Source of the DNA: Alcaligenaceae bacterium
GTDB taxonomy: Bacteria; Pseudomonadota; Gammaproteobacteria; Burkholderiales; Burkholderiaceae_B
Assembly (NCBI GenBank): GCA_012839585.1
Contig: DUNB01000069.1
Span: forward strand, 1-62,934
DNA: 62,934 nt
Direction: 5' to 3'
Each line of letters starts with the position of its first letter. Position 1 is the first letter of the stretch. Shown in pieces: positions 14,501 through 42,855 of this stretch. Below the pieces are notes generated by a model that was not told where the DNA came from, ran no database searches, and saw only the letters and a program-made list of their open reading frames with translations. A program made the translations under genes and the position numbers.

Positions 14501-15178
14501 TTACTTGGGGCGGCGCATATCAAATAGGGTGTCATCGGTGATTTCATAGTAATCACCGGGACCACCACCACGCAAAATGGGGCGACCAGAGGCGCAATGG
14601 TAAATACCGTCTTTGATCAGATCCGGAGAAATGTGTACGGCCACGGCCTCGCCTAAAACCATCCAGGTATCAAGCAGCTTGCCTTCGTGATCCGTGAGCT
14701 GAAAGTGTTTGGTGACTTTGCATTCTATAGAGGCACGGCTTTCACCCACGCGTGGTGCGGCAATGAGTTGGCTGGCAATAGGGGTCAATTTAGCAAATTC
14801 AAATTCATTGACCGATTGCATGGTGCTGGTTTGGTTCATGGGCTCAGCCAAATCACGGGAAGCTAGGTTCCACGTGAATACACCGGTTTCAATCGCATTA
14901 CGGACACTGTCTTTATAACCTACGCTGGAAAAGGCAATGATAGGCGGCTGATAATTAAAAATATTACAAAAGCTATAAGGAGCCAGGTTTGGATTGCCGT
15001 CCGCGTCTTGGGTACCGATCCAACCAATCACGCGGGGTCCTACGATGGAGCTAATCGGATCATGGCGTAGACCGTGACCTTTTAGAGGCTCGTAAGAATG
15101 ATAGTTATTCTGCACAGTTGTCTCTTTTAGTAAAGCAAAAATAGAATAGGGTTCGGGAATATCCCGATAGGAACTCAC
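14501..15178 (-). CDS. flavin reductase family protein
   Basis: 225 aa; PRVIGWIGTQDADGNPNLAPYSFCNIFNYQPPIIAFSS. Confidence 0.82.
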   Translation of the reverse strand: MSSYRDIPEPYSIFALLKETTVQNNYHSYEPLKGHGLRHDPISSIVGPRVIGWIGTQDADGNPNLAPYSFCNIFNYQPPIIAFSSVGYKDSVRNAIETGVFTWNLASRDLAEPMNQTSTMQSVNEFEFAKLTPIASQLIAAPRVGESRASIECKVTKHFQLTDHEGKLLDTWMVLGEAVAVHISPDLIKDGIYHCASGRPILRGGGPGDYYEITDDTLFDMRRPK

Positions 15179-15275
15179 ATACTTTACAACTAAAATAATT
15201 AATCGGCAAGATGCCGATTTCCTGGTCGTTCTTGGGTTTTAGCTGTATTGCCCAATGCTTTTTGGGGCCATTACT

Positions 15276-16247
15276 ATGTCACCGAACTCGACACACTGGC
15301 AGGACTTTACCTCGAATGACGTTGATCAGGTGCAGTCCTCTGTCAGCTCCATGATTAAACCGCATCGCCTTAGCTTAAAAAAGGCCTCGCAGCCTTTGCA
15401 AACACGGATGCGATTTGCTCAATTTGGTCAAATTTCCTTAGTACGCTTAGGCTACGGGGCAGATGTGCGCATCCAGCCTGATGAGCTAGCCGGTTTTTAT
15501 CTGATTCAATTACCCCAGTATGGTCAGGCTTTGGTACGTTGTGGCGGGGAGGAGGTTGAGTCTTCTCCGAAGGTCGCAACCGTATTAAATCCCAATGCCG
15601 AAATTGATATGGTTTGGCGTGCCAATAACGAACAATTAATGCTAAAAATCGATCGTTTTTTGATCGAACAATTGGTACGGGGCATGGATATGGATGTGCC
15701 CGAGTCAGGTTTGGTGTTTCCGGTAAAACTCGAAGGCCATTTGTCCGTTAACTGGCAGTTAATGATGCGATATTTAGTTGACTGCGCACGGCATGCGGAA
15801 TCCATCTTACAGTCTCCTTTATTAATTTCCCAACTAGAACAGTTGGCAGCCACCACCTTTTTGGGGGTGCACTCACCGCTGGCCCCAGAAAAACCACGGG
15901 TGCAGGGCAGGGTACTACCTAAACATATTCGTTTGGTAGAAAACTACCTCTATGAACATGCCGATCAGGTGATTCGCGTAGAAGAACTGGCGGCTTTGGC
16001 TCAGATCAGTATTCGTAGCTTACATGCGGGGTTTAAAGAGTACTGTGGCATTAGTCCTATGCAGTATTTACGTCAAATCCGTTTAGATCGAGCGCGGACC
16101 GACTTACTGCAGACCGAGGACGCAACCACTTCGGTAGCCGATGTGGCGTTGCGCTGGGGTTTTATGCACCAAGGTCGCTTTAGTGCAGAGTACAAACAGC
16201 GTTTTGGTGAAACCCCAAGCCAAAGTCTACAGCGCGCTCGCGCCTGA
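15276..16247 (+). CDS. AraC family transcriptional regulator
   Basis: C-terminal AraC HTH (HADQVIRVEELAALAQISIRSLHAGFKEYCGISPMQYLRQIRLDRARTDLL...RFSAEYKQRFGETPSQSL). Confidence 0.92.
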   Translation: MSPNSTHWQDFTSNDVDQVQSSVSSMIKPHRLSLKKASQPLQTRMRFAQFGQISLVRLGYGADVRIQPDELAGFYLIQLPQYGQALVRCGGEEVESSPKVATVLNPNAEIDMVWRANNEQLMLKIDRFLIEQLVRGMDMDVPESGLVFPVKLEGHLSVNWQLMMRYLVDCARHAESILQSPLLISQLEQLAATTFLGVHSPLAPEKPRVQGRVLPKHIRLVENYLYEHADQVIRVEELAALAQISIRSLHAGFKEYCGISPMQYLRQIRLDRARTDLLQTEDATTSVADVALRWGFMHQGRFSAEYKQRFGETPSQSLQRARA

Positions 16248-16252
16248 TGCCT

Positions 16253-17839
16253 CTATTTTTTGGCGATACGCTGGGCCGCCAAATAGCCGGATTGCCCACC
16301 TAAACCAGGACCTGGGTGCACTGAGGCACCAATATGATGCAGGTTCGGTACAGGTGTTTTTCCTGTACGAGCTTTGGACTCACCCGCAAAGGGCCGCATA
16401 AAGAAAAATTGATCCGGTGAGCACACGCCAGAATAAGGATCACCACCCACTAGGTTGATATTCCATTGTTCTAGATCAGCAGGACTAAAGGCACGATGAC
16501 CAATAATATGTTGGGTCCAACCGGGCATCACACTTTCTAAACGCTGCTTGACGCGCTCTACCATAGCCTCACGCACCGCTTCGTTCCATTTACCATCGGC
16601 AGGCACAGGGATTTCATTGGCCGCATCGGCTTTGATGCTAGAGGGCATATCCTGCATTTGCACCCATAAAATCCAAGAACCATCAGGGGCTCGGGTGGGG
16701 TCTACGGCCACAGGCTGGCCTACTGCTAAGGTGGGCTTGCTTGGTAGCCAACCGTTATTGGCTTCCACCACAGAGGCGCAGACTTGTTCCATGCTTTCCG
16801 TTACGTGGACCATGGGAACATGGATCAGTTCTTCGTTAATCCAGGTGGGTTTTTCTTTTAAGGCAAAATGAATTTGCATACCACCACGTCCGTAGCGGTA
16901 GGCTTTGGCTTGATCTTTATAGCGTTGTTCGGCATTGGGTAATAACTGTTCGTAAAGCTGATTAGGCGTTACGTTACACACCACGGCTTTTTTGGCTAAG
17001 TATTGCTCAGAGCCAACACGTACGCCGGTGGCTTTGCCATTTTCAACCAGGATCTGATCCACGTGTTTGCCTGTGAGAACGCGACCGCCCCTTTTTTCGA
17101 TGATCTTGATAAAGGCTTTGACGATGTTGTAGCTGCCGCCCTCAACCACTGGCATGCCCCCTGCGACTACAGCAGAAAAGGTGAGTTTGCCAATGAGTGA
17201 GGAAGAGGCTTCGTCGGGGCCTAAGCCGCTGTGCAACACCCACGGCGCGATCATGGCGCGTGTGGCGTCACCTTGTAGTTCACGTTCAGCCCAACGACGA
17301 AAGTTTTCTAGAGACTGAGAGGCAAACTGCATCATGCCGTCTACGCCGCGTTCGCGCCAGGATTTGAAAACTAATTTGCTGGTCTCCCAGCTGTACGGTT
17401 CGCCGCCCATTAAGCCAAAGACTAAGGGGGCGTCTGGACCAAACATGTTGGCTGCTGCGGCACCCACAGCATCCCCATCACCAGGGGTGATTTGGTTCAA
17501 GCGTTGAATGGTGTCATCCATGTCTTGACGCAAAGCAATGCCCACACCGTCGGGCGTGGCTAATCCGGTGCTATACGAGCTGCTTACAAAGCGTACGCCG
17601 GCTTCCTCTAGGGGTTTAGCGAGCTCGGCATAAGCAGGTCCCCCTACAAAAAGGGGGTACCAGCTAGAAAACACATCATGAGTAAAACCGGGGAAAAGCG
17701 TTTCGGTGCGTATACAGCCACCGGCAACGGCATTACGTTCTAATACGGTGACGTTGAGACCGCGCTCAGAAAGTAGGGCGGCACAACTGAGTGAGTTCAT
17801 GCCACTACCTACAATCACCACATCACTTTGTTGCTGCAT
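16253..17839 (-). CDS. phytoene dehydrogenase-like NAD(P)/FAD-dependent oxidoreductase
   Basis: 528 aa; DVVIVGSGMNSLSCAALLSERGLNVTVLERNAVAGG; C-terminal LHHIGASVHPGPGLGGQSGYLAAQRIA. Confidence 0.85.
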   Translation of the reverse strand: MQQQSDVVIVGSGMNSLSCAALLSERGLNVTVLERNAVAGGCIRTETLFPGFTHDVFSSWYPLFVGGPAYAELAKPLEEAGVRFVSSSYSTGLATPDGVGIALRQDMDDTIQRLNQITPGDGDAVGAAAANMFGPDAPLVFGLMGGEPYSWETSKLVFKSWRERGVDGMMQFASQSLENFRRWAERELQGDATRAMIAPWVLHSGLGPDEASSSLIGKLTFSAVVAGGMPVVEGGSYNIVKAFIKIIEKRGGRVLTGKHVDQILVENGKATGVRVGSEQYLAKKAVVCNVTPNQLYEQLLPNAEQRYKDQAKAYRYGRGGMQIHFALKEKPTWINEELIHVPMVHVTESMEQVCASVVEANNGWLPSKPTLAVGQPVAVDPTRAPDGSWILWVQMQDMPSSIKADAANEIPVPADGKWNEAVREAMVERVKQRLESVMPGWTQHIIGHRAFSPADLEQWNINLVGGDPYSGVCSPDQFFFMRPFAGESKARTGKTPVPNLHHIGASVHPGPGLGGQSGYLAAQRIAKK

Positions 17840-17861: not shown

Positions 17862-18380
17862 TTATAGGTCTATGCGAGTGAACTTGCCGCGATGGAAAAC
17901 GGCTGGCTCGTGTTCGGTAATAGTGCTATGGCGCACCACACGACCAATAAATAGGGTGTGGTCGCCGCCTTCGTGCTGACGATAGTTTTCACACACAAAG
18001 GTAGCAACACAGTCATCAATTAGGGGGACACCTTCCTCGCCATCCACATGAGAAACCAGGGCAAACTTGTCTTCGACTTTGGAGTTGGCAAAACCCAAGG
18101 CCGCCTCGGTTTGGCTTTGGCTGATCACGTTAATCGCAAAATAATTGCAATTTTCGAATACAGATAAGCTTGGCGAATGGTTGACGAGGCTCCACATAAT
18201 TAGTGGTGGCTCTAGGGATAGCGAGGAAAAGGAGTTAATGGTCAAGCCCACAGGCCGTCCTTCCGGAGTGCGTGTTGTAACAATGGCAACACCGGTAGGG
18301 AAATGGCCTAGTGCTTGTCTAAATGCGCGGCTGTCGAACAAGTTGACGTTGGTTTCGGGTTCCATAATGGCCTGTGACAT
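17862..18380 (-). CDS. flavin reductase (two-component monooxygenase reductase)
   Basis: 172 aa; FPTGVAIVTTRTPEGRPVGLTINSFSSLSLEPPLIMWSL. Confidence 0.9.
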   Translation of the reverse strand: MSQAIMEPETNVNLFDSRAFRQALGHFPTGVAIVTTRTPEGRPVGLTINSFSSLSLEPPLIMWSLVNHSPSLSVFENCNYFAINVISQSQTEAALGFANSKVEDKFALVSHVDGEEGVPLIDDCVATFVCENYRQHEGGDHTLFIGRVVRHSTITEHEPAVFHRGKFTRIDL

Positions 18381-18407: not shown

Positions 18408-19652
18408 TTAAGCGACCGCGGGTATTTGAGCTTTAGTCTGAACGAGTTTTTCAGCTTCGGCTAAATCGCCCCATGCTGGGTATAACACCGGTGGGTGATC
18501 AAAAGCATTGGCCATGAAATGAGCCAAACCTGGGTGCTGATCAGCACCAGTTAATAGAGCCAGCGCTTGTGGGGTTGGAGGGAGCAACATAGAGTTAGTC
18601 CAAGCAACAACCTGGTTGGCGTATTCCCAGTATTTTTCAAAGGTGGCTTCCATCCAGGCGCGATCAAATTGTTGCTCGCCGTGCTCTAAAATGCGGTCTA
18701 AGTATACTTGTGCACATTTGGCGGCGTTGTTAGAGCCTTGGCCTGTAATGGGGTCATTAACCACTACAGCATCACCCATACCCAACACAATATTGCCAGA
18801 GGGCAAAGTGAGCACAGGCTTACGCACTGTGGGAGGGAAGCTACCAGCTAGGTAGCCTTGATCGTCTGTGAGTTCGCAGTTACGGGCGCGATCGGCCTCC
18901 CAAGGGAGGAACTCTTGCAAGAAGGAAATGCTGCGCTCAAAGTGCTCTTGGGGACTCTTGGCATCACGGAAGCGATCCAGTGGGCCGCCAGGGATTCCTT
19001 CAAACACCATGATATCGCATGGACCAGATAGGGTTAGGGAGGGGAAGACGAAGTATTCGCCCACACCGGGGATAAAGTTAAAGGAAACGCGAGAGTATTC
19101 TGGAGTGGGCTCCAAGCCATGCACATAGGTTAACGCCAAGGCGCGTTGTGGCTTATCGAAAGGAGAGCGAGAGGCGTCGCGTTCAAACAAGCGCACCACA
19201 TCACCTTTACCCGCAGCTAAGATGGTCAATTCGTATTCATTGCTGATGCGTTCTAGTTCAGCTACACCTACGTCCTCGAAGAACACCTTACCACCACGTT
19301 TTTCGAACTCCTCGATCCATATCGGCATTTTGAGGCGTTGGTCAGTGGCTTGGGCGACGCGATCTAGGCGGCCGCTCCAGTCGACAGCTTTGGTGTCAGG
19401 CTGCTCTGGGTTAGGTAGTGCAAAGCCAATGCCTTCGACGGGAGGGCATTCGTCTTCCCAGTAGTTGATGCCTAGACGACGTTCTACGTCTAGCGCATTA
19501 GCAAACATACACTGACTCGACATCACACGTCCTTGGCGGACTTGATCAGGAGTGCGGTTTGTGTAAAGGGCGACCTCGTAACCTTTGTCTAAGAGGCCGA
19601 AAGCCACGGGCATGCCAGCTTGGCCGCCACCGATAATTGCAATTTTACGCAT
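18408..19652 (-). CDS. styrene/indole monooxygenase-like FAD-dependent oxygenase (StyA/IifC/IndA-type)
   Basis: MRKIAIIGGGQAGMPVAFGLLDKGYEVALYTNRTPDQVRQGRVMSSQCMF; styrene monooxygenase-type architecture paired with a flavin reductase. Confidence 0.85.
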   Translation of the reverse strand: MRKIAIIGGGQAGMPVAFGLLDKGYEVALYTNRTPDQVRQGRVMSSQCMFANALDVERRLGINYWEDECPPVEGIGFALPNPEQPDTKAVDWSGRLDRVAQATDQRLKMPIWIEEFEKRGGKVFFEDVGVAELERISNEYELTILAAGKGDVVRLFERDASRSPFDKPQRALALTYVHGLEPTPEYSRVSFNFIPGVGEYFVFPSLTLSGPCDIMVFEGIPGGPLDRFRDAKSPQEHFERSISFLQEFLPWEADRARNCELTDDQGYLAGSFPPTVRKPVLTLPSGNIVLGMGDAVVVNDPITGQGSNNAAKCAQVYLDRILEHGEQQFDRAWMEATFEKYWEYANQVVAWTNSMLLPPTPQALALLTGADQHPGLAHFMANAFDHPPVLYPAWGDLAEAEKLVQTKAQIPAVA

Positions 19653-19686: not shown

Positions 19687-20475
19687 TTATTCAGCGAGTT
19701 TAGGAATAGCAGGTACGTTTTGTTCTGGACCCATGGCGGAGTAACCACCATCTACGGCGTAATCGGCTCCGGTCACAAAACTTGCGGCATCTGATAAGAG
19801 GAATGCGACCACTTCGCCCACTTCTTCAGGGTCACCCACACGACCTAACATGTGAAAGGGGGCAGCCACACGATCTGTTTTGGCGCGATCGCCACCGGTG
19901 ATTTCATCCATGACACGTGACCAGGTCCAACCAGGCGATACGGAGTTCACGCGGATATGATCAGCAGAGAAATCCATGGCTAGGCTGCGAGTTAGCTGCA
20001 AAATAGCTGCCTTGGATACGGGGTATAACCAGCGACCGGTTTGTGCAATCGAAGAGGAAATAGAAGTAAAGTTCACAATGGCACCGCCGTTTTGTTGCTT
20101 GATGAACGGACGTACGACCTTGCTCATTTCTACGGTGCTGACCACATTGATATTGAGGGCAGTGAGCCAGTCTTCGCGGCTGGAGTTCATGCCTTCATCT
20201 AAGTAGGAGCAGGCTAGGTTCACTAAGCCATCAACGCGACCGAAGTGATCCTGTACGGCCTGAGTCGCCGCGGCAATGCCTTGGTCATCGGTGATATCGA
20301 CTGGCCAGAAACGTGCCTTGCTTTGGTCCTTACCTACAGCGGCTTCACCACCTTTGGTATCAATATCAAACACAGCTACGCGGGCACCATAACCAAGCAG
20401 TACATCCACTACACCAGCGCCTATACGTGTGGCGCCACCGGTTACGATAATGACTTTATTGTTTAAGCCTTTCAT
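19687..20475 (-). CDS. SDR family oxidoreductase
   Basis: 262 aa; Rossmann TGGATRIGAG, YPVSKAAILQL, active-site Y-x3-K. Confidence 0.92.
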   Translation of the reverse strand: MKGLNNKVIIVTGGATRIGAGVVDVLLGYGARVAVFDIDTKGGEAAVGKDQSKARFWPVDITDDQGIAAATQAVQDHFGRVDGLVNLACSYLDEGMNSSREDWLTALNINVVSTVEMSKVVRPFIKQQNGGAIVNFTSISSSIAQTGRWLYPVSKAAILQLTRSLAMDFSADHIRVNSVSPGWTWSRVMDEITGGDRAKTDRVAAPFHMLGRVGDPEEVGEVVAFLLSDAASFVTGADYAVDGGYSAMGPEQNVPAIPKLAE

Positions 20476-20708
20476 GAGAAGCTCCTTTTTGATCTAGTAT
20501 GGTTCAGATAGTAGAGAGCTTGTTTTTGACGGTCTATCCAGTTTTCGCAACGCTTATCCACATAGCGCATATACTTGCTGTTTCTAGGGAAAACCCCCAT
20601 CAAAAACCTCCTAAAAAACAGGCGGCAAGGCATGTAACCGGTTGATAATCATGCGGTATTTTTACTTTATATTTGGATTTTTTAGTTCTGATGTAGTGAG
20701 TTTGCACA

Positions 20709-20739
20709 TAAAAAAACGCCTGCATAAGCAGGCGTTTTC
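20709..20739 (-). terminator. Rho-independent terminator downstream of TRAP operon
   Basis: Minus strand GAAAACGCCTGCTTATGCAGGCGTTTTTTT. Confidence 0.88.
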
Positions 20740-20759
20740 AAGCGAGTCTAAAGAATGAA

Positions 20760-21794
20760 TTATTCTTTGCTTAGTTCTTCGATTTGCGCGCGGTAAAACT
20801 CAAGAGCGGCTTTGCCGTCTACGTTTTTCTTTGCTGCCGCAGCGATCCAGTCGTTTTCAATAAAAGCGAGATCGGCTTTTAGTTTGTCTAGCTCAGCACC
20901 CTCTACGTGGTAGGTTTTTAAGCCGGCATCGGTAAGGGTTTTGATGGCTTTGACTTCGGACTGTTGCCATTTGTCGCCAAAGTCACGGGCGATATATTCG
21001 CCAGAGATTTTTTCGATGGCAGCACGGTCAGCTTCGCTGATGGACTTCCATTTGCGTTCGTTCATGAACATGTATTGGCTGGATTTGCCAAAACCACCGG
21101 GTACAGCTACAGCGCTTTTGATGAGTTTGTCTAGCTTAAAGTTTTCCATTTGATCGTATTGGAAATACAAACCATCAATCACACCGCGAGAAAGCATTTC
21201 ATAGCTTTCGGAGGCGGGAGCGTTAACGGTCACACTGCCCATGGCTTTACCGATGCTATCAAACAGTGGGCTAGGCGAACGTAGCTTAAGACCGTCTAAA
21301 TCGCTGATGCTTTTAATTTCATCTTTATTTGTGAAAATGACCGTAGCGGGACTGGTCCACACACCCATTAATTTCACACCACGATGCTCATCGGCATCCA
21401 TCATGAATTTTTCATAGGTGCGCCAGTAAGCCACCGAGTTAACCCCACCGTCTTCGGTAGTGAAAGGCAACTCTGCGAACTCGATAAGAGGAAAGCGTGT
21501 GGCCGTGTAGCTGTGTACGGACATGCCCATGTCGGCCACACCGTTACGTACTAAGTCTAAGTGAGCCTGGGGCTTACCGAGTGGGTTAGTAAACTCGACT
21601 TTAACGCGACCTTCGGTGACTTCGCTTACCTTAGCAGCCCAGGGCTCGAGCATTTCTTTGACGATGTAATGCGCTGGGGGTAACCAGTTGGAAAAGCGTA
21701 AGACGGTGTCCGCGGCCTGAGCACTGCTGATGGGGGCGATGGCGGCGGCTAAACCTAGACCAAGTGTGGCCCCTAAGCGTTTGATTAGTTTCAT
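20760..21794 (-). CDS. dctP: TRAP transporter substrate-binding protein, DctP family (second system)
   Basis: 344 aa with signal peptide; DLDGLKLRSPSPLFDSIGKAMGSVTVNAPASESYEMLSRGVIDG. Confidence 0.92.
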   Translation of the reverse strand: MKLIKRLGATLGLGLAAAIAPISSAQAADTVLRFSNWLPPAHYIVKEMLEPWAAKVSEVTEGRVKVEFTNPLGKPQAHLDLVRNGVADMGMSVHSYTATRFPLIEFAELPFTTEDGGVNSVAYWRTYEKFMMDADEHRGVKLMGVWTSPATVIFTNKDEIKSISDLDGLKLRSPSPLFDSIGKAMGSVTVNAPASESYEMLSRGVIDGLYFQYDQMENFKLDKLIKSAVAVPGGFGKSSQYMFMNERKWKSISEADRAAIEKISGEYIARDFGDKWQQSEVKAIKTLTDAGLKTYHVEGAELDKLKADLAFIENDWIAAAAKKNVDGKAALEFYRAQIEELSKE

Positions 21795-21839
21795 TTGTCT
21801 GCTCCTACATTTATGGGTAATTTTACTAATTAGAAATGA

Positions 21840-23129
21840 CTACATACTGTTGGGAATCACGAGGGCAATCCAAGGCACTAAAACCAAGATCGCCAAGCGA
21901 ATAATGTCGGTGATCACAAAGGGACTGACCCCGTAAATGACCGTACGTAAAGGAATATCCGGCATGACGTTTTTAATCATGAAGATATTGAGCCCTAATG
22001 GTGGTGTAATGAGGCTAATTTCAGCGGCCACCACCACAACAATGCCGAACCAAACCAGATCAAAACCCAAGGACATCACAATAGGGTAAAAGATGGGTAC
22101 GGTGAGCATCACCATGGACATGGTTTCTAAAAAGCAGCCCAACACTAAATAAATCAGGCAGATCATGAAGATCACCATGATGGGGGACATTTCCAACCCA
22201 TTGATGAATTCAAGTAACTGCTGAGGCAGTCCAGCTATCGTTAAAAAGTTGGTGAAAATAAGCGCACCAATGACGAGGGCGAACATAATCGCGGTGGTTT
22301 GAGCCGCCTCTACAAGAACGGTTAGGTACAGTTTGGGCTGCCAACCACGGCGTTTCAAAGTGATTAAAAAAGTACAGAAAGCACCAATACCGGCGGCTTC
22401 GGTGGGGGTAAAAACCCCGCCATAAATACCACCCATGATCACGACAAAGAGCAAGGTAATGGCGAAAACACCTTTAGTGGCGTGCAAACGCTGTGTCCAT
22501 GAGCTTTTTGCACCGGGTCGGCCGAGTTTGGGATTGATGGTGGTTAACAGTAATACCGTTAGCAAATACATCACTATGGCAATAAAACCAGGTAAAAATC
22601 CCGCGGCAAATAATTTACCGATATCGGTTTCGGTCAAAATACCGTAGACCACCATGATGATGCTGGGGGGAATCAGAATCCCCAACGTACCCCCGGCGGC
22701 AATACTGCCGGTGGCCAAGCTATCAGCATAGTTGTATTTGCGCATATTCGGCATGGCGACACGGCTCATGGCGGCGGTGGTGGCCATGCTGGAGCCAGAC
22801 AGCGCACTAAAGGCGCCACAAGCCAGGATGGTGGCCATGGCTAAGCCACCACGCAGATGGCCAATAAAGGCATTGGCGGCAGTATAGAGATCGCGAGACA
22901 GGCCAGAGGCATTGACCAGGTTACCCATCAAAATAAAGAGGGGTAGTACCGTAAAGCTATAGCTCATGCCGGTATCAAAGGCGGTTTGAGCGGCCATGGT
23001 ATAGGCGGCTTCGATGCCTGTGTAGTAACTGAAGCCTATGGTGCCAACGAGCAGCATGCCCCAAGCAATAGGTAAGCCTACAAATAGGCTGAACATTAAA
23101 ACGGCTAAGCCCAGTAAAGAAACTAACAT
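21840..23129 (-). CDS. dctM: TRAP transporter large permease, DctM family (second system)
   Basis: 429 aa; SGSSMATTAAMSRVAMPNMRKYNY, LIPPSIIMVVYGIL. Confidence 0.93.
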   Translation of the reverse strand: MLVSLLGLAVLMFSLFVGLPIAWGMLLVGTIGFSYYTGIEAAYTMAAQTAFDTGMSYSFTVLPLFILMGNLVNASGLSRDLYTAANAFIGHLRGGLAMATILACGAFSALSGSSMATTAAMSRVAMPNMRKYNYADSLATGSIAAGGTLGILIPPSIIMVVYGILTETDIGKLFAAGFLPGFIAIVMYLLTVLLLTTINPKLGRPGAKSSWTQRLHATKGVFAITLLFVVIMGGIYGGVFTPTEAAGIGAFCTFLITLKRRGWQPKLYLTVLVEAAQTTAIMFALVIGALIFTNFLTIAGLPQQLLEFINGLEMSPIMVIFMICLIYLVLGCFLETMSMVMLTVPIFYPIVMSLGFDLVWFGIVVVVAAEISLITPPLGLNIFMIKNVMPDIPLRTVIYGVSPFVITDIIRLAILVLVPWIALVIPNSM

Positions 23130-23150
23130 AGTGTAAAAAACCTCGATGGC

Positions 23151-23660
23151 TTAGGACTGGCTAGGTGATACAAACAGGTGCATGAGGGCCGCGATGGCTG
23201 ACATGGCTGTGAAAATGGCGATGCCAAAGGCAAAGGGGGCAATAGGTAACTGTAAGGCGTTACTCATATCACCATAATCCGCGAGCTGCAGGCCATGTCG
23301 CCATAAGAAATAGCTGAGAATGGCTAAACCGGTGGCGGAAATCAGTGAGAGCATTTTTTGTTGGATGGTGCGAAAAATAGGCCTCATCCATGCGTCTAAA
23401 ACCGTAACGGTGAGATGTTGTTTATGCCACGTTACACGTGGCAATGCCGCAAAAACCAATATGCCTAATAACAGCTCGTTGCTTTCGTAGGCGCCATGTA
23501 AAGGCGAATGAAACACATAACGTCCCACCACATCGATGGTGGTGATACAGGTCATTAGCACCAGTAATACGACGCATAGCGCATCTAAAACGGTTTCCAA
23601 CGCACGTACCAGTCCGCTTTGGCTGCGAACTAACTGCATACCGGGTAAATCGTTGTCCAT
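23151..23660 (-). CDS. dctQ: TRAP transporter small permease, DctQ family
   Basis: 169 aa, TM segments, position in dctQMP order. Confidence 0.87.
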   Translation of the reverse strand: MDNDLPGMQLVRSQSGLVRALETVLDALCVVLLVLMTCITTIDVVGRYVFHSPLHGAYESNELLLGILVFAALPRVTWHKQHLTVTVLDAWMRPIFRTIQQKMLSLISATGLAILSYFLWRHGLQLADYGDMSNALQLPIAPFAFGIAIFTAMSAIAALMHLFVSPSQS

Positions 23661-24549: not shown

Positions 24550-24951
24550 TTAGAAGTTGTTTGGGGCGTAAGCGACTAAAACACCTACCCCTGCAGCATC
24601 TAGCTCTAGGGCGAGCTCAGTGCGATCGCCGGTTTGTAAGTCATCTTTGAGGTGGGCAATAGCAACGGGACCACAGTCTAGTTTGACAGTGGCAATACGC
24701 CAGGGGAGCTGTTCTTGGAAGTACGGCTCATTACTATGACGCAGCGTGGAGGAGGCCATCACGGTTGCCTGCTGAGGAACCGCTTGCCAGGGTAGATCAT
24801 CGTGCAAGCAGTTCGAACACACGTCACGAGGCGGGTATTGCACTGTCTGACAAGCAGAACACACTTGCAGCGCAAATGTGTTGTTTTCTGCGGCGGTAGT
24901 TAAGCCCGCTGCTGCAGCACTACGTGTGCTGGGAGGTAGGGGGGTACTCAT
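24550..24951 (-). CDS. Zn-ribbon / OB-fold (DUF35) acyl-CoA-associated protein
   Basis: C-x2-C...C-x2-C (CSACQTVQYPPRDVCSNCLHD); overlaps thiolase gene. Confidence 0.88.
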   Translation of the reverse strand: MSTPLPPSTRSAAAAGLTTAAENNTFALQVCSACQTVQYPPRDVCSNCLHDDLPWQAVPQQATVMASSTLRHSNEPYFQEQLPWRIATVKLDCGPVAIAHLKDDLQTGDRTELALELDAAGVGVLVAYAPNNF

Positions 24952-31506: not shown

Positions 31507-31574
31507 AGGGTTGTCTCCGTCCTTCTTCATAAATGGTAAAGACAGGGCATGTGTGAACATGCCCTGGGGCGATA

Positions 31575-34726: not shown

Positions 34727-37042
34727 TTAACCTTTTAGTACAGGGCGATTTTCATTGCGCTCTAACCAGTCTTGACCCCAACGGTATTGTTTGGGCCAAG
34801 TTACCTCGTGATAACCCAGTTTTGCTGCCTCGTGCAGTGGCCAGTTTGGATTTGCCAAGAAGCCACGAGATAGCGCACAAAGATCTGCACGACCGGCAGC
34901 AATAATGCTGTTGGCGTGGTCGGCTTCCATGATGGAGCCAACGGCCATGGTCGCGATGTTAGCTTCGTTGCGAACACGGTCAGCAAATGGGGTTTGATAC
35001 ATACGGCCGTAGATAGGCTGCTGTTCTGCGACCACTTCACCACTGGATACGTCAACGAGATCGGCGCCAGCAGCTTTGAATAGACGGGCGATTTCAACCG
35101 CCTCGTCTACGGTGGTACCGCCCTCTGCCCAATCAGTGGCAGAGATACGAACCATCATAGGTTTGTTTTCAGGCCAAACGGCACGCATGGCATTGAATAC
35201 CTCTAGTGGGTATTTCATGCGATTTTCCAGACTACCACCAAACTCATCAGAACGCTGGTTCGTGAGTGGGGAGATAAAGCTGGAAAGTAGGTAGCCATGA
35301 GAGGCTTGTAGTTCTACACAGTCAAAACCGGCAGCATCAGCACGCTTGGTGGCAGCGACAAAGGCGTCACGCACTTGATCCATTTGCTCGCGGCTGATTT
35401 CAGCAGGGGTAGCACTGTCTGCATCAAAGGCAATAGCAGAGGCGGAGACTAAATCCCAGTTACCGGAAGCCAATGGTTTGTCAGCTTGTTCCCAACCGAC
35501 TTGTTTGGAACCACGACGACCAGCATGGCCCAGTTGAACACCCATACGAGCACCGTTGTCTTGAACCGACTTCACAACCTTAGCCCAAGCAGCTGTTTGC
35601 TCATCGTTCCATAAGCCAGGACAACCGGGGGTAACGCGACCGTCAGCAGTAACGGCAGTCATCTCAGCCATTACCAAAGCGGCACCACCTAAAGCGCGTG
35701 CGCTGTAGTGAGTGTGATGGAAGTCGTTTACTAAACCGTCTGTGGCCGAGTATGTCAGGGTAGGCGCAAAAACAATGCGGTTTTTGAGCTTCATGTCACG
35801 CAAGGCGTAAGGAGTGAACATAGGTGGCGGTGGGGTTTGATCCGCCGCTAAATCCATACCGGCGTCTTTGGCAAACCAACGCTCAAATTGTTCGATGCCT
35901 TCTTGGTCACGTAGACGTAGGTTTTCATGAGAGATACGCTGTGAGCGAGTCAACATGGAGTACGTGAATTGCTCAGGTGCCATATCGGCGTAGCGGGCCA
36001 CGTTCTCGAACCATTCGGTGGAGTTACGAGCGGCGTTTTGAATACGCAACACGTCTACACCACGAACTTTGCCGTATTCTTCTAAGGCTTCCTCTAGGGA
36101 ATCATCATTTTTTAGATGCTCGGCCAAGGAGATGGCGTCCTCAAGGGCAAGCTTAGTACCGGAACCGATGGAGAAGTGAGCGGTATGCGCTGCATCACCC
36201 ATGAGTACAAAAGGTGTTTTCTTACCGTCAATATTTTCCCAATGTACCCATTCGTTACAGATGACACGTGGGAAACGAATCCAGATAGCTGAACCACGTA
36301 GGTGGGTGGCGTTGCTGACCAGAGGGTTGCCATCTAAGTAAGGGGCGAAGAGTTCTTCGCAGTACTTGATGCCTTCCTCTTGGCTCATGTTATCGATGCC
36401 TGCTTTTTCCCAGGTTTCGTTCGGGGTTTCTACAATAAAAGTAGACATACCGTCCTCGAAACGATAGGCGTGTGCCTGGAACCAGCCGTGCTCGTTTTCA
36501 ACAAAAATAAAGTTAAACGCGTCAAATACCTTTTTGGTACCTAACCAGACAAAGCGACAGTTACGCTCGTCGATATCGGGCTTGAAGCTTTCGGGGTATT
36601 TGTTGCGGATGCGGCTGTTAATACCGTCGGAAGCGATAACCAAATCAGCATTGTATTTACGTGCGATTTCGATCTCGTCTTCTACTACAGTTTCAAATAC
36701 CAGCTCTACACCGACTTCTTCACAGCGAGCCTGTAGGATGTTAAGTAGTTTTTTGCGACCAATACCAATAAAACCGTGACCTTTACTGCGAATGGCACGA
36801 CCTTTGAAATGCGTTTCAATGTCGTCCCAGTGGTTAAAGGCGTCACCAATGGTTTGCGCGGAGACTGGATCCGCAGTGCGCAAGTTTTCCATTGTGGCAT
36901 CGGAAAACACCACGCCCCATCCAAACGTATCGTAAGGACGATTACGCTCAACCACCACGATTTCATTTTCAGGATTTTGTAGCTTCATCAGCAGACCAAA
37001 ATATAGGCCAGCTGGACCTCCACCAATACATACGATTTTCAT
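34727..37042 (-). CDS. bifunctional FAD monooxygenase / OYE-family reductase (2-aminobenzoyl-CoA monooxygenase/reductase or salicylyl-CoA 5-hydroxylase type)
   Basis: 771 aa: N-terminal [16 protein letters not shown] flavoprotein hydroxylase with [23 protein letters not shown]-terminal OYE domain ([39 protein letters not shown]). Confidence 0.92.
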
Positions 37043-37188: not shown

Positions 37189-37629
37189 TTACGCTGTGAT
37201 GGCTTCGTCTTCTAGCAAGTAAGCTTGCATAGGTTCACGAAGAAACTCAGGAATTTCGATGGCTTGGTGGGTTACCAGTGACGTGGTTACGATCACTTGT
37301 TGCACTTCCATGCGCAATACACCGTCTTTACCTACGCATTGCAAACGTAGCTGTAGTGAGCGACTGCCGATTTTTTTAACGCCAATACTGAGCACAACGT
37401 CATCGCCCATTTTGCTGATAGAGCGGAAATCAGCTTGTAGGTTTACAGTAGGCATACCTACTTTTTTTTGCGCAATCACACTGCTGAAACCCCCTGGAAC
37501 CATGGAATCAACCCACTGTTCTAAGAGGTCGTTAAACATTATGAAATACTGCGGATAGAAAACAATGCCAGCGGGGTCGCATTCGGAAAAACGGATACGG
37601 TGCTCACTTGTGTACAGCTTTGATCCCAT
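37189..37629 (-). CDS. acyl-CoA thioesterase (4-hydroxybenzoyl-CoA thioesterase-like)
   Basis: 146 aa hotdog; HRIRFSECDPAGIVFYPQYFIMFNDLLEQW. Confidence 0.92.
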   Translation of the reverse strand: MGSKLYTSEHRIRFSECDPAGIVFYPQYFIMFNDLLEQWVDSMVPGGFSSVIAQKKVGMPTVNLQADFRSISKMGDDVVLSIGVKKIGSRSLQLRLQCVGKDGVLRMEVQQVIVTTSLVTHQAIEIPEFLREPMQAYLLEDEAITA

Positions 37630-37743: not shown

Positions 37744-38262
37744 TTATTTGATTAAGGTTAATAAATGCACACGTAGCTGTCCTAAATGCTGATGTACGAG
37801 CTCTAGAGCATCGTGATCAAGCCCTTCGAAAAGTTCGGCCACCCATTGGTTGTGTTGTTTGGCCATTTGCTCAAAGGTCTTTTTGCCTTTAGGTGTTAAA
37901 CGTAGAAGCCAGGCGCGGCGATCTGTGGGGCTGCTTTCACGAGAGACAAGACCTTCGCGAGAAAGCTCATCGGTTAAACCAGTTACGTTGCCACCAGTGA
38001 CCATTAAATAACGGGACAATTCACCCATTTTTAGACCATCTGGGTAGCGATACAACTGAGCCATGTAATCAAATCGAGCTAAGGAAATATCAAAGTTGGC
38101 CCGTAGGCGACGACGTATTTCATCTTCGATTTGTTTGGCGCAGGTCATGAGTCGTAACCATAACCGTAAGCTGGCAGGGTCTTTAGGACCTAAACGGCCT
38201 TCGTAACCACTATCGTGATTGTGTTCTAGCACCTCATCCAGTTGCACTGCGTCTTGTTTCAT
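37744..38262 (-). CDS. MarR family transcriptional regulator
   Basis: wHTH: YPDGLKMGELSRYLMVTGGNVTGLTDELSREGLVSRESSPTDRRAWLLRLTPKG; likely start ATG 38262 after AGGA. Confidence 0.93.
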   Translation of the reverse strand: MKQDAVQLDEVLEHNHDSGYEGRLGPKDPASLRLWLRLMTCAKQIEDEIRRRLRANFDISLARFDYMAQLYRYPDGLKMGELSRYLMVTGGNVTGLTDELSREGLVSRESSPTDRRAWLLRLTPKGKKTFEQMAKQHNQWVAELFEGLDHDALELVHQHLGQLRVHLLTLIK

Positions 38263-38270
38263 TTTTTTTT

Positions 38271-38291
38271 CCTGTACATCACGTGTACAGG
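38271..38291. promoter_or_regulatory. perfect inverted repeat CCTGTACA-TCACG-TGTACAGG overlapping the marR Shine-Dalgarno
   Basis: 8-bp perfect arms, 5-nt spacer, immediately 5' of ATG 38262. Confidence 0.6.
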
Positions 38292-38330
38292 TCGTACTTG
38301 TGATGGTTAACAATAAGTCGATTGTTCTTA

Positions 38331-38416: not shown

Positions 38417-39925
38417 TTACGCTAAAGCGTGTGATTTAAGCACCTTTTCTAACTCTTTACCGTGCTCGTCTGCCAGGGCTGCATCACGCATCGCTTGCAA
38501 GATATTAGGAGACACACGGTTGCTGTTGCGGTCCAACGTATCCATAACGGTATGGAAGTTTTTCAGACCACGCAGGTGTGTATCGCCGTAACCTTTGACC
38601 AAACGCTGTGTGCGTGCGATTTCCAAAGCCAGAGCGGGGTGAGCATGAGCATTGTCTGCAATGCGTTGTAGCCATTTTTCGATGCGCTCTTGCTCGACTT
38701 CGTAGCGTAGCGTTTTACGGCGCCAGCGTTTGAAACCACCTAAGGTGTTTAGGAGCAAGAAACCGCGTAAAGAGCTGGTTTGAATCACGCGACCTTCTTG
38801 GGTGAATTTGCGCAGTATTTTGTGCCCTAAGGAGCTAGGTTTTAGCAACCAACGACCCAGCTTTTTGCAAGGTAGGATTTCGCTGATTTCCTCAACACGT
38901 GGGTGCATGTATTCATTAATGGTCAAAATTTGACCATCGTCTAAACGCACTTCTTGCTGTACGCGCTCGAAACGGCTGCTGCGAGTTTTAAGCTCAGCCA
39001 CACGAATGGCGTCCTCAAAAGACATCCACAAGGCCAAAAAGCGTCCGGTTTCGCGGATGAGCGCGGTATCGTCTGGGTGTGCTTTGCTTTGTATCTGCGT
39101 GAGGCGATCTAAGTAGAGCGTGGCGTATTCCACGTCCTGAAAATCGATCAGACGACGTACGCCTTCGAGAATAATGGACTGCGCATCGGCGGGGAAATCG
39201 TTACGAACACGATCGACCAACGCGGCAACTTTGGGGTTTTTAGGCTGAACAGATGCCACATCAATGGTTTTGGCATCGGTTTGCTTGTCCGCGGCCCCTT
39301 CGTTACCGACGCGAGCATACGCGCTAGCGAAAGCACGTAAACTGGGTTTGACCCCTACGCCACCACGTTCGATGGTGGCTTCAAACTGTTCGCGGCTAAA
39401 AGGCAGTACCCCAGAGGCTGACAAGGCACCGAATAAAACAGCACTGATCACACTACCGGTGTCTTCGGCGGCTTGGGCCATATCGAAGTGAATGTACTGT
39501 TTAGCGGCGGCACGGGTGTGTTCGATGAGCGCATCGCTGTCTACACGACCATCACCCATCGCGGTTTTTTCCGCGATGGAATACACACGGTGTGTGGAGG
39601 TGATCAGCGTTGTGCGGTCTTGGGTTACAAAGCCACGCTGTACAGCGCGGCCGGCTTCCATCAACTCGGAAGCCATGACTACGTCTACATCACCTGGGGT
39701 AGGCATCAATGCCAATACCGGCGATTTACCGTCTTTGATTTGGCTTTTGGGGAAAAGCTCCACGTAGTAAATGGTGGCACCGGTACGTTGCGCCACCCCT
39801 GCAATAGAGGTGGTTTGTGCTACGTAGTCGTTGTGTTCACCTAGAGCGACGATCCAGTTAGCTAATACGCCACCGCCTTCGCCACCCATAGCTAAAATTG
39901 CGATTTTGATTGGTTTTGCTTGCAT
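38417..39925 (-). CDS. iorB: indolepyruvate oxidoreductase subunit beta (long form)
   Basis: 502 aa; IKIAILAMGGEGGGVLANWIVALGE, AGVAQRTGATIYYVELFP; C-terminal extension. Confidence 0.9.
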   Translation of the reverse strand: MQAKPIKIAILAMGGEGGGVLANWIVALGEHNDYVAQTTSIAGVAQRTGATIYYVELFPKSQIKDGKSPVLALMPTPGDVDVVMASELMEAGRAVQRGFVTQDRTTLITSTHRVYSIAEKTAMGDGRVDSDALIEHTRAAAKQYIHFDMAQAAEDTGSVISAVLFGALSASGVLPFSREQFEATIERGGVGVKPSLRAFASAYARVGNEGAADKQTDAKTIDVASVQPKNPKVAALVDRVRNDFPADAQSIILEGVRRLIDFQDVEYATLYLDRLTQIQSKAHPDDTALIRETGRFLALWMSFEDAIRVAELKTRSSRFERVQQEVRLDDGQILTINEYMHPRVEEISEILPCKKLGRWLLKPSSLGHKILRKFTQEGRVIQTSSLRGFLLLNTLGGFKRWRRKTLRYEVEQERIEKWLQRIADNAHAHPALALEIARTQRLVKGYGDTHLRGLKNFHTVMDTLDRNSNRVSPNILQAMRDAALADEHGKELEKVLKSHALA

Positions 39926-39946: not shown

Positions 39947-42202
39947 TTAGAATGCGTACTGTTCACGTTTAGCGGCGTTACGACGCTGGAACCAGCCAAT
40001 CACACCACGACGAAGTTTTTCACGGAATTTGTCCATGCCGGTTGGGTTGCTAATGATTTGCGCACGGTAGAAAGAAGGGCACAAAATAGCAGCGTGGGAG
40101 ACCTCACCACACAAACCACAACCTACACAACTATTCATTACAGAGGCGACTGGGTCAGTACGTAGCGCATCTGGGTTCGGACGAATGGATAAAGAAGGAC
40201 ATCCAGACAAACGGATACAGGAGTGATCACCGGTACATGTATCAGGATCCACACCAAAGCGTTCGCGTACTACGCGTTCCCCGGCAGCAACTGCTTTACG
40301 GACTTGACCACGCTCACGACGCTGGCGGTTCAACATACACTCACTTTGCGCGATGATGACCTTAGGACCTTTGACCTTGGTCGTTAAGGCTTCGCGTAAA
40401 TCGGCGGTCATGGTTTTGAGGTCATAGGTGCGTTTTACGGTACGTAACCAGTTAACCCCCACACCACGAGCTGCTTTTTCGATTAAGTGACCGGTGCTGC
40501 GTGTTTCGTTTTTGGCTTTGGATGACAAGATGTCTTGACCACCGGTAGCGGCCGTGTAGTTGTTGTCAATCACAATGGTGAGGTTATCGCTTTGGTTAAA
40601 CACGGCGTTAGCAATACCGCTAGTTAATCCGTTATGCCAGAAACCCCCATCACCCATGATGGAAATAGCGCGTTTGTCAGAGGAGCTCGTATTTAACGCT
40701 GAAGCCGCGGCGCCACCTAAACCGTAACCCATCGTGGTGTTACCTAGGTTAAAGGGCGGCAAAATAGAGAACAGGTGACAGCCAATATCAGCACTGACGT
40801 GGTGCTCACCGAGTTCGCGCTCAACCAATTTCATCGCGGTAAAGATAGGACGCTCTGGACAACCAGTACAGAACCCTGGTGGACGTGCGTGCACGTTTTC
40901 ATCCAAGGAGCCCATCGGACGTACTTCGGCGGCTTCGACCACCGCAGCCGCAGCCGTAGCGCCAGCAGGAGCAGCGACGTCATTCAGGTTGCTGATCTCT
41001 ACAGTGCGAGCTTTGGCGCCCGTGTCTTCGGTGCGAGGTACAACGCGAGGCTTCGGTGCGGGCTCGGGAGCCAAACGACCGTAATGCTCTAAGAAGGCAC
41101 GGATTCCTTTGGTCATGGTTTGGGTGTTGTATTCACCCGCCATTGGCAAGAAGTCCTTGCCGTGTAGTTCGGTGTCTAGTTTGCTGCGACCCAAAATAGA
41201 GGCAATGTTTTGCTCTACGAAGTTAGGCTGACCTTCTTCTAGAACGAGAACCGCGCGTTTACCTTCGCAGAAACGTAAAAGCTCAGAGTCAATCAGTGGG
41301 TAGGCCACGTTCATGACATAAAGCGGGATTTTGGATTCGCCAAACACGTCGGCTAGACCGAGGTGTTCTAGAGCGCGAATAGCGCTGTTGTAACCACCAC
41401 CTTGAACAATCAAACCGACGTCATCGGTGTCATCGCCAAAGAATTCGTTTAGCTGACGTTCTTCGATGAATTTGATAGCGGCAGGCCAGCGTTTTTCCAC
41501 TTTTTCTTTTTCGTGTAGGAAGCTGGCAGGGGGCAATACAATACGATCTAGATCACGCTCAGGGTGCTCCATGGCATCTTTAAGCGAGAAATCAGCACGT
41601 TTGTTATCGGAGGCAACAAACTGACCGTGTACGTGACAAGCGCGAATGCGTAATTGCAACATAACGGGTGTGTTGCTGGCCTCGGACAGGTCAAAACCGT
41701 CTTTTACGGCTTGAACAATACAAGGCAAGTTAGGACGCGGGTCTAGCATCCACATTTGGGATTTCATGGCAAAAGCGTGGCTACGCTCTTGCATGATGGA
41801 GGAGCCCTCGCCGTAGTCTTCACCCACAATGACCAGTGCACCACCTTTAACACCACCCGAAGCCAAGTTCGCTAAGGCGTCAGACGCAACGTTAGTCCCT
41901 ACGGTGGCCTTAAAGGTGACGGCACCACGTAGTGGGTAGTTCACAGAAGCGGCCAAAGAGGCTGCAGCCGTGGCCTCAGAGGCACTGTTTTCGAAGCGAA
42001 TGTTGTGTTCGGTCAGAATGTCTTGGGCGTCAGCCAACACATCCATCAAGTGAGAAATAGGGGCGCCTTGGTAACCAGCAACATAGGAAACGCCAGACTC
42101 TAATAGAGCCTTGGTCACGGCAAGAATACCTTCGCCGCTAAAGACCTCACCGTCTCCTAGACGTAATTTTTTGACTTCCTCGACAAATGAGCGTTCTGCC
42201 AT
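39947..42202 (-). CDS. iorA: indolepyruvate ferredoxin oxidoreductase subunit alpha
   Basis: TPP enzyme (IMGDGGFWHNGLTSGIANAVFNQSDNLTIVIDNNYTAATGGQ) and Fe-S cysteines (CVGCGLCGE); start ATG 42202 after AGGAGG. Confidence 0.93.
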   Translation of the reverse strand: MAERSFVEEVKKLRLGDGEVFSGEGILAVTKALLESGVSYVAGYQGAPISHLMDVLADAQDILTEHNIRFENSASEATAAASLAASVNYPLRGAVTFKATVGTNVASDALANLASGGVKGGALVIVGEDYGEGSSIMQERSHAFAMKSQMWMLDPRPNLPCIVQAVKDGFDLSEASNTPVMLQLRIRACHVHGQFVASDNKRADFSLKDAMEHPERDLDRIVLPPASFLHEKEKVEKRWPAAIKFIEERQLNEFFGDDTDDVGLIVQGGGYNSAIRALEHLGLADVFGESKIPLYVMNVAYPLIDSELLRFCEGKRAVLVLEEGQPNFVEQNIASILGRSKLDTELHGKDFLPMAGEYNTQTMTKGIRAFLEHYGRLAPEPAPKPRVVPRTEDTGAKARTVEISNLNDVAAPAGATAAAAVVEAAEVRPMGSLDENVHARPPGFCTGCPERPIFTAMKLVERELGEHHVSADIGCHLFSILPPFNLGNTTMGYGLGGAAASALNTSSSDKRAISIMGDGGFWHNGLTSGIANAVFNQSDNLTIVIDNNYTAATGGQDILSSKAKNETRSTGHLIEKAARGVGVNWLRTVKRTYDLKTMTADLREALTTKVKGPKVIIAQSECMLNRQRRERGQVRKAVAAGERVVRERFGVDPDTCTGDHSCIRLSGCPSLSIRPNPDALRTDPVASVMNSCVGCGLCGEVSHAAILCPSFYRAQIISNPTGMDKFREKLRRGVIGWFQRRNAAKREQYAF

Positions 42203-42405
42203 GTTGTCCTCCTTGTGGTACTGCAAATGGTTTGATAACTAGATAACTATTATTTTCATATGAATATATTTAGAACTCAACATATTGATCGTAATGGTTT
42301 TCCCTATAATGTGTGTTTTTTCATAAGATCAAAGACTTGGCGGGAAGGCTTAGGTATAGTTAAGCCGATTTATTGTATTTAACGACCTAATTTTCTATCA
42401 GTAGG

Positions 42406-42855
42406 GTGTGTGTGGTGACAGAATCCGTGTTTGTGGACAATTATTTACCCGCGCTTTTAGCGCAGGCAAGTCAAATTATATCGACTGAGTTTCACCAAGT
42501 AGTGCAAGAAAATGGCTTGTCTATTACCGAATGGCGTGTGCTATCGACCTTATCGGGCGCTGGTGTAGTGAGTGTGGGGCATTTGGCGCGAATTGCGACG
42601 AGTAAGCAGCCAACCGTGACGCGGGTTGTAGATAAAATGGTTCAGGCAGGCTTTGTGCATCGAGTGGCACATAATGGGGATAGGCGTGTGACCTTAGTGG
42701 AGATCACAGAGGCGGGTCGTTCGTTGATATCCGGCCTCATCGTGGAAGCAAAAAAGCACGAGGATGAGGTGGTGCGCCGTTTACAACCTTTGGATGTAAC
42801 GGCGCTAAAAGCGACTTTGCGTCGTCTGATCGCAGAAAACCGCGTTGACGACTAA
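42406..42855 (+). CDS. MarR family transcriptional regulator, divergent from iorAB
   Basis: ITEWRVLSTLSGAGVVSVGHLARIATSKQPTVTRVVDKMVQAGFVHRVAHNGDRRVTLVEITEAG. Confidence 0.93.
   Translation: MCVVTESVFVDNYLPALLAQASQIISTEFHQVVQENGLSITEWRVLSTLSGAGVVSVGHLARIATSKQPTVTRVVDKMVQAGFVHRVAHNGDRRVTLVEITEAGRSLISGLIVEAKKHEDEVVRRLQPLDVTALKATLRRLIAENRVDD

Follow-up and report, generated by a model that had tools for sequence, protein, structure and literature searches.

The gene block at positions 14501-42855 of the window (the whole stretch of 62,934 nucleotides analysed here) is, judged by its genes and their order, an iad-type locus for indole-3-acetic acid (IAA) in a Paenalcaligenes genome, joined at its left end to an iif/ipo-type indole operon. 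Inserted in the iad locus is what sequence comparison identifies as a lower pathway, comprising a thioesterase, an aminobenzoyl-CoA/salicylyl-CoA hydroxylase, a gentisate-type dioxygenase (GDO), an FAH hydrolase and a nitrilase. The IAA and indole parts are each of a known kind; the arrangement that joins them to each other and to the lower genes is a variant conserved in two genera. We propose with moderate confidence that this one locus serves the catabolism of both IAA and indole, by the steps set out in the Discussion.

Setting and extent of the locus

The window is contig C54 of a 2.32-Mb host genome (95% complete), the nearest named relatives of which are Paenalcaligenes, family Alcaligenaceae (91-94% identity in IadD). 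Read from right to left, the block encodes a MarR-family regulator, IadA, IadB, a second MarR regulator, a thioesterase, a hydroxylase-reductase fusion, GDO, an FAH hydrolase, a nitrilase, a cyclase, IadC, IadD, IadE, IadF, IadG, an OB-fold protein, a short-chain dehydrogenase (SDR), a TRAP transporter, another SDR, IndA, a flavin reductase, a CrtI-like oxidoreductase, an AraC-family regulator and a flavin-reductase-like protein. In good agreement with the original prediction of a contiguous, largely minus-strand block, only the AraC gene (15255-16247) and one MarR gene (42406-42855) lie on the plus strand; all other coordinates given below refer to the minus strand. Every gene class that the prediction had named is found in the block; its list lacked the 4HBT thioesterase (37189-37629), the CrtI-like FAD oxidoreductase (16253-17839) and the second flavin-reductase-like protein (14501-15178). 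The true starts of iadD, IndA and iadA are probably the ATGs at 29587, 19652 and 42202, respectively. The right flank carries galU and the type III pantothenate kinase gene, and the left flank apparently ordinary metabolic genes. With whole-protein matches reaching 1291 bits, and with at least five further genomes that repeat the gene order, the block is far beyond chance.

The block had been described as an island with an unusual combination of genes. Base composition lends no support to an island (G+C 0.500 inside the block and 0.493 outside), and a foreign origin on this ground was dropped; the block is also syntenic across Paenalcaligenes and Alcaligenes. The combination is not unusual either, since the whole set recurs in these two genera and the IAA part is of the published iad type (PMC9613470). 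A plasmid origin of the window was likewise dropped, as a search of PLSDB found no similar plasmid.

The auxin part

IadR (42406-42855, plus strand), a MarR73-type IAA sensor of the MarR family, is encoded divergently from iadA; among PDB entries it matches best those of the Variovorax MarR73 set (7kki/7kfo, 1e-37). Ser28 and Arg46 of MarR73 are required for IAA binding, and their loss removes IAA (PMC9613470); both are kept in the window protein as S26 and R44, which supports the predicted control by MarR. A search for a MarR operator palindrome returned only one short, weak palindrome.

The reductase IadC (29598-30581) matches the solved IadC structure 7ylr (8e-90). The Rieske oxygenase alpha subunit IadD (28274-29587) matches PDB 9o71 (58% identity) and 7yls, with E about 1e-181 against the solved Variovorax proteins; it keeps all iron and Rieske ligands and eight of the nine IAA-pocket residues listed in PMC10374108, the exception being Leu211, replaced by Gln. 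The beta subunit IadE (27758-28240) was recognised as a ring-hydroxylating beta subunit in conserved adjacency to iadD. The system, predicted to have three components, is two-component, with the oxygenase subunits and one reductase that carries a fused ferredoxin domain. IadF (26120-27748) is assigned from acyl-CoA ligase families and the iad gene order. An SDR (23804-24532) occupies the place that an SDR takes after the thiolase-OB-cyclase genes in most iad loci; by position, this gene would be iadJ and the OB gene iadH of PMC12633357. The TRAP transporter P, M and Q subunits (20760-23660) are conserved in Alcaligenes and Paenalcaligenes.

Comparison of 80 named loci shows a recurring core order, iadA-B-C-D-E-F-G-OB-cyclase-SDR. 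The presence of iadA and iadB marks iad-like loci (PMC9613470), and in the window both lie near the Rieske genes iadDE, together with the divergent IadR that keeps the MarR73 Ser28/Arg46 pair and an IadD with the IAA pocket and metal ligands. An IadI-type cyclase after the OB gene is absent; the cyclase precedes iadC and is of the indole-operon type. Since the published markers are present even though the IadI position is empty, we call the locus a variant of the iad type.

The indole part and a probable common isatin hydrolase

The left end encodes a two-component indole monooxygenase, IndA/IifC (18408-19652; PDB 9lrq 5e-174, 7z4x 2e-162), whose match to the StyA family is below the cut-off. 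Its partner flavin reductase IifD (17862-18380) was recognised as a conserved neighbour, and the role of the IifB-like SDR (19687-20475) as indole dihydrodiol dehydrogenase is taken from PMC6221969. The AraC-family regulator (15255-16247, plus strand) is AndR/WhpR-like (NF041686 188 bits, below cut-off). The monooxygenase, flavin reductase, SDR and AraC genes are contiguous, as befits an iif/ind operon; the operon contains no IifA-type cyclase, the cyclase gene being located about 10 kb off in the iad part. The CrtI-like FAD oxidoreductase (16253-17839), whose gene in L019, L061, L146, L148, L152 and L160 stands next to a gene for isatin hydrolase or indole oxygenase, is a putative dioxindole-to-isatin dehydrogenase. 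The indole operons of relatives G002 and G011 include a MetA-pathway porin, which the window lacks, and that of G038 has its own cyclase (AraC-CrtI-cyclase-flavin reductase-IndA-SDR, L152). A homologue of the outermost, flavin-reductase-like protein (14501-15178; PF01613) adjoins FAH and GDO genes in Bradyrhizobium L085/L086.

The cyclase-family enzyme (30721-31560) matches the solved isatin hydrolase PDB 5nmp (2e-116) and carries the metal motif HxxxHxD. In a tree computed without Acinetobacter IifA, so that the label 'isatin hydrolase' rests on 5nmp, the window, Paenalcaligenes and Alcaligenes cyclases group with indole-operon cyclases and 5nmp (100/100), set apart from the IadI cyclases of the usual iad position. 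Since the single cyclase is of the indole-operon type and the usual IadI site after the OB gene is empty, isatin is the most likely meeting point of the IAA and indole arms, with one isatin hydrolase probably common to both. The predicted convergence of the two arms on a CoA-linked 2-aminobenzoyl route is supported.

IadG resembles retro-aldolases of steroid degradation

IadG (24948-26120) has the SCP2-thiolase fold, and its best PDB matches include 9myr (CtSal) and 6ok1 (Ltp2), enzymes that cleave beta-hydroxyacyl-CoA by a retro-aldol reaction (PMC12329534). In all 67 iadG genes the thiolase nucleophile is replaced by Gly (Gly86), and Tyr302 of Sal and both of its Gln residues are kept. The motif reads YDDY in IadG, YDCY in Sal and YDHF in Ltp2, with one iadG copy carrying Ala at the second position; the absence of the nucleophilic thiolase Cys and the presence of the catalytic Tyr of Y-D-x-[YF] hold in 67/67. 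Neither catalytic acid (Cys304 of Sal or Tyr344 of Ltp2) is present, IadG having Asp284 and Gln332. The Asp at the position of the essential Cys304 of Sal counts against a retro-aldolase. The OB partner (24550-24951; PF12172, PF01796) has ChsH2-type zinc-ribbon and OB domains with a C-x2-C-x10-C-x2-C pattern, the zinc cysteines of which are kept in 67-68 of 68 proteins.

On this basis we propose that IadG resembles Sal and Ltp2 in its mode of action, yet we do not assign it as either; it is probably not a thiolase but a retro-aldolase like those of steroid degradation. Dioxindole-3-acetyl-CoA is a beta-hydroxyacyl-CoA, and its retro-aldol products would be isatin and acetyl-CoA. The report that deletion of iadF, iadG, iadH or iadI in each case leads to accumulation of a dioxindole-3-acetate mass (PMC12633357) fits such a role for IadG. 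IadG is called a ketothiolase in that paper, and our literature search for an aldolase proposal for IadG found no such paper. The residues of IadG, typical of a retro-aldolase and not of a thiolase, contradict the predicted thiolysis to anthraniloyl-CoA.

Proposed role of the IorAB-type enzyme IadAB

IadA (39947-42202) is an IorA-like alpha subunit of a TPP- and FeS-dependent 2-oxoacid oxidoreductase (TIGR03336 303 bits, below cut-off) with a TPP_enzyme_C domain and GDG/NN and CxxC motifs, and IadB (38417-39925) is the IorB-like beta subunit (NF006179 705 bits, cut-off 348) with POR and DUF6537 domains. In the iad literature searched, we found no assigned step for these marker genes. Acting on indolepyruvate, an IorAB enzyme would yield indoleacetyl-CoA. 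The substrate of IadDE, by contrast, is free IAA (PMC10374108). Since isatinate is a 2-oxoacid, an IorAB-type route to 2-aminobenzoyl-CoA fits better than one from indolepyruvate, and IadAB probably turns isatinate into 2-aminobenzoyl-CoA.

Gene neighbourhoods point the same way. In G250, which belongs to another genus, one run reads nitrilase-FAH-GDO-hydroxylase-thioesterase-iadB-iadA, then AraC, CrtI-like and cyclase genes (L140, L148), and continues with an SDR gene and Rieske genes whose similarity to iadD is only about 44%. The run in G113, which includes L146, reads Rieske-SDR-cyclase-CrtI-AraC-iadA-iadB-thioesterase, with a 49-residue hydroxylase remnant. Both L140+L148, with full hydroxylase, GDO, FAH and nitrilase genes, and L146 lack iadF, iadG and the OB gene and have iadAB. 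In G203 and G038, iadAB together with iadG-OB-cyclase stands behind other front ends, and in Bradyrhizobium GDO and FAH genes are found beside iadAB too. The IorAB homologues hence track isatin hydrolase and CoA/thioesterase/hydroxylase genes even where IAA side-chain genes are missing, which speaks against the predicted indolepyruvate arm. The cyclase lies within 16 kb of iadA at 82 of 104 places, five of them without iadD nearby. At a further 19/104 neither iadD nor the cyclase is near iadA, partly owing to contig ends and partly in a divergent clade with TRAP or thioesterase genes; three of these places were inspected and gave no clear pathway. Given these 19, an exclusive link of IadAB to isatin was dropped.

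In Variovorax, anthranilate is restored by an iadC-K2 cassette that lacks iadA and iadB (PMC12633357); free anthranilate can thus be reached there in the absence of IadAB. Loss of iadI leads to accumulation of dioxindole, not isatin (PMC12633357). We count the cassette result, the dioxindole phenotype and the 19/104 iadA places against the proposed pathway.

The proposed lower pathway

The second MarR-family regulator (37744-38313) has an orthologue beside a stand-alone hydroxylase/dioxygenase module (L122). The 4HBT acyl-CoA thioesterase (37189-37629; PF13279) shares 55-57% identity with the thioesterases of IadAB- or GDO-linked loci (L122, L140, L146) but only 34-41% with those of canonical abm clusters. 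The hydroxylase-reductase fusion (34727-37042) scores 1291 bits against NF006101 (cut-off 1078), a salicylyl-CoA 5-hydroxylase/oxidoreductase family that we take to include 2-aminobenzoyl-CoA monooxygenase/reductase, and it has the FAD hydroxylase fused to an OYE-type domain that characterises the latter. Sequence identity does not separate aminobenzoyl-CoA from salicylyl-CoA hydroxylases, and the choice of substrate by identity was dropped as uninformative. GDO (33588-34715) matches PDB 3bu7 (2e-175), its TIGR02272 score of 312 bits being below the cut-off of 442. The FAH-family hydrolase (32609-33532; PF01557), a candidate maleylpyruvate hydrolase, stands next to the dioxygenase wherever a locus was inspected, apart from the second Alcaligenes-type copy, L147.

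The nitrilase-family C-N hydrolase (31575-32597; PF00795) has the catalytic Glu47, Lys132 and Cys166. At 49 of 61 places, most of them free of iad genes, 8 kb or less separates the nitrilase from the dioxygenase; the nitrilase is near iadA at only 16/61. This linkage assigns the nitrilase to ring cleavage and disfavours the entry from indoleacetonitrile that had been predicted for it.

Among 20 genomes of other genera sampled for the hydroxylase, 18 pair it with an SDR, in most cases together with a ligase, and have no dioxygenase there. The other two are L128, with the hydroxylase beside iadAB, and the stand-alone module L122, which reads thioesterase-RidA-hydroxylase-ligase-GDO-FAH-MarR, its ligase being a CoA ligase. 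None of the enzymes of the block is an obvious deaminase; we count this, and the failure of sequence to tell the two hydroxylase substrates apart, against the proposed pathway as well. The amino group might leave by deamination before ring cleavage, giving gentisate, or 5-hydroxyanthranilate might be cleaved directly, giving an amide for the nitrilase.

Discussion

In the pathway that we propose, IadCDE would oxidise IAA and an SDR would yield dioxindole-3-acetate, the CoA ester of which would be formed by IadF and cleaved by IadG and the OB protein in a retro-aldol reaction to isatin and acetyl-CoA. In the indole arm, IndA with its flavin reductase, then an SDR and then the CrtI-like enzyme would convert indole to isatin. 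The common isatin hydrolase would open isatin to isatinate, from which IadAB would form 2-aminobenzoyl-CoA with CoA by oxidative decarboxylation. The hydroxylase would then place oxygen on C5, hydrolysis of the thioester and removal of the amino group would give gentisate (or 5-hydroxyanthranilate), the dioxygenase would open the ring, and the FAH hydrolase with the nitrilase would complete the route. Gene identities, residues, synteny and the tree come from this analysis; for other strains, the literature reports the IadCDE step, the sequence of the iad reactions, the binding of IAA to IadR and the indole monooxygenase and SDR steps. What we infer is the retro-aldolase, the substrate of IadAB, the CrtI-like reaction and all steps below 2-aminobenzoyl-CoA. 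Of the original interpretation, IAA/indole convergence and MarR control are supported, the indolepyruvate and indoleacetonitrile arms are not supported, and thiolysis is contradicted.

Several other readings have to be weighed. Isatinate might first become free anthranilate, which a CoA ligase encoded at another genomic site would then re-activate, with IadAB auxiliary or acting on a different 2-oxoacid. The iadC-K2 cassette, which suffices for anthranilate in Variovorax (PMC12633357), is in line with this, as is a benzoate-CoA-ligase-like gene (338 bits) on contig C16 of the host genome (G000:C16). That ligase, however, is below the family cut-off, MbcS scores better, and no homologues of the block's other aromatic genes are nearby; the conserved cyclase-IadAB-thioesterase-hydroxylase neighbourhoods would also be left unexplained, and we find this reading doubtful. 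That the hydroxylase, thioesterase, dioxygenase and FAH hydrolase form a salicylate module (salicylyl-CoA to gentisate) merely lying beside iad and indole genes seems unlikely to us. The best family of the hydroxylase is indeed named salicylyl-CoA 5-hydroxylase, the dioxygenase is gentisate-type, and GDO-FAH-nitrilase stands alone in many genomes; but the block has no salicylate-CoA ligase besides iadF, whereas the module in G245 has its own, two genera have the lower genes inside the iad block, flanked by iadAB and iadCDE, G250 has them joined to iadAB, and RidA in L122 suggests an amine substrate.

Quite unlikely, in our estimate, is a variant with no free-anthranilate step in which IadAB leads from isatinate directly to 2-aminobenzoyl-CoA, the dioxygenase cleaves 5-hydroxyanthranilate so that its C2-NH2 becomes a carboxamide (maleamylpyruvate) and the nitrilase-family enzyme frees ammonia from this by hydrolysis. 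We regard as very improbable that IadAB acts on indolepyruvate and the nitrilase on indoleacetonitrile as extra entry arms to IAA, with IadG an ordinary thiolase. The family names (indolepyruvate oxidoreductase, nitrilase, acetyl-CoA acetyltransferase) and the published name ketothiolase (PMC12633357) favour these arms, but IadDE uses free IAA (PMC10374108), isatin hydrolase accompanies IadAB in loci devoid of IAA side-chain genes, the nitrilase is linked to the dioxygenase and not to iad, and IadG lacks the nucleophilic Cys. As noted above, the expected IorAB product would be indoleacetyl-CoA.

The joint IAA and indole pathway bears on an old proposal. For Alcaligenes In3, Claus and Kutzner proposed in 1983 the route indole-indoxyl-isatin-anthranilate-gentisate, as reviewed in PMC6221969; this 2018 review leaves the anthranilate-to-gentisate step unexplained and its genes not revealed, and PMC8383072 repeats the In3-type route for IAA in Alcaligenes. 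All nine genomes with iadA in an Alcaligenes-type genus (g2, its name taken from matching named loci L020-L022) contain the candidate lower gene set. By comparative evidence, the lower genes are the best candidates so far for the 1983 anthranilate-to-gentisate route as that review presents it. We put forward as new hypotheses, supported by comparison, that IadAB acts on isatinate, that IadG-OB is a retro-aldolase, that both arms use one isatin hydrolase and that these genes are candidates for the gentisate route. Work is under way to equip root bacteria with the iad pathway for auxin control, and the neighbourhoods give IadAB and IadG testable roles. If true, IAA and indole would share an isatin-centred pathway into central metabolism, not one to excreted anthranilate.

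Compared with known systems, the locus shares IadR-iadA-iadB, iadCDEF, the thiolase-like, OB and SDR genes, and the diagnostic residues of IadR and IadD, with the iad loci of Variovorax CL14, Achromobacter and Alcaligenes (PMC9613470, PMC10374108, PMC12633357). It differs in the lower-pathway genes between iadB and iadC, an indole-operon-type isatin hydrolase replacing IadI, TRAP instead of ABC uptake and the appended indole operon. With the iif/ind/ipo operons of Acinetobacter O153, Cupriavidus SHE and Pseudomonas WHOP (PMC6221969, PMC12538310) it has in common the SDR, two-component indole monooxygenase, flavin reductase and AraC regulator, and its relatives the MetA porin; unlike these operons, that of the window has no porin, no cyclase of its own (the common one is about 10 kb away) and an added CrtI-like oxidoreductase. 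IadG and its partner are like Sal/Ltp2 and their DUF35 partners (PMC12329534) in fold, catalytic Tyr, both Gln of Sal, the Gly replacing the thiolase Cys and the zinc-ribbon OB protein, and differ in YDDY instead of YDCY/YDHF and in the absence of a steroid context. The fused monooxygenase-reductase is of the same family as in the abm 2-aminobenzoyl-CoA pathway of Azoarcus evansii (PMC4539516), but typical abm clusters have an SDR and a ligase and lack a dioxygenase, whereas the window has a thioesterase, GDO and FAH hydrolase. Finally, there is the sdg-type pathway.

This pathway leads from salicylyl-CoA to gentisate. The window resembles it in hydroxylase family, thioesterase and gentisate dioxygenase, and differs from it in having no dedicated salicylate-CoA ligase and in the setting of these genes within an indole/IAA locus.

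Isatin hydrolase gene and ends of the block

Because an approximately 1-kb patch over the isatin hydrolase gene (window 30500-31500) shares 97-99% DNA identity with the relative G002, whereas the DNA on either side is 70-86% identical to that genome, we judge from these identities that the isatin hydrolase gene alone has been recently replaced. The MetA-pathway outer-membrane porin gene is absent from the window at 20476-20759, the place where G002 and a second relative, G011, have it. At the block's end lies a flavin-reductase-like protein (14501-15178), a homologue of which adjoins the FAH-family hydrolase (FAH) and gentisate-type 1,2-dioxygenase (GDO) in Bradyrhizobium loci L085 and L086.

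Parts of the block in other settings

A GDO-FAH-nitrilase triple, followed by an apparent GntR-type regulator, recurs in many genera (loci L133, L134, L136, L142 and others) without the hydroxylase or iad genes. A module standing by itself in locus L122 (7818-15961, genus g43) reads thioesterase-RidA-hydroxylase-CoA ligase-GDO-FAH-MarR and is a candidate anthranilate-to-gentisate operon, ligase included.

Within the source genome itself, a second cluster (L131, G000:C60:55000-69417; 6061-12203) combines Rieske genes approximately 45% like IadDE with an SDR, a CrtI-like oxidoreductase and an ABC binding protein; it has no cyclase of its own and is possibly a Rieske-based indole-type oxidation set.

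IadAB homologues (62-68%) adjoin TRAP or thioesterase genes in L154, L155 and L156, where cyclase and Rieske genes are absent, and they probably act on another 2-oxoacid substrate. Finally, a hybrid locus (L158, G203:C41, 1464-11726) joins iadA-iadB to iadG-OB-cyclase, and its front end, with an SDR, a flavin reductase and an approximately 400-aa protein in place of iadCDE, looks like the iac type.
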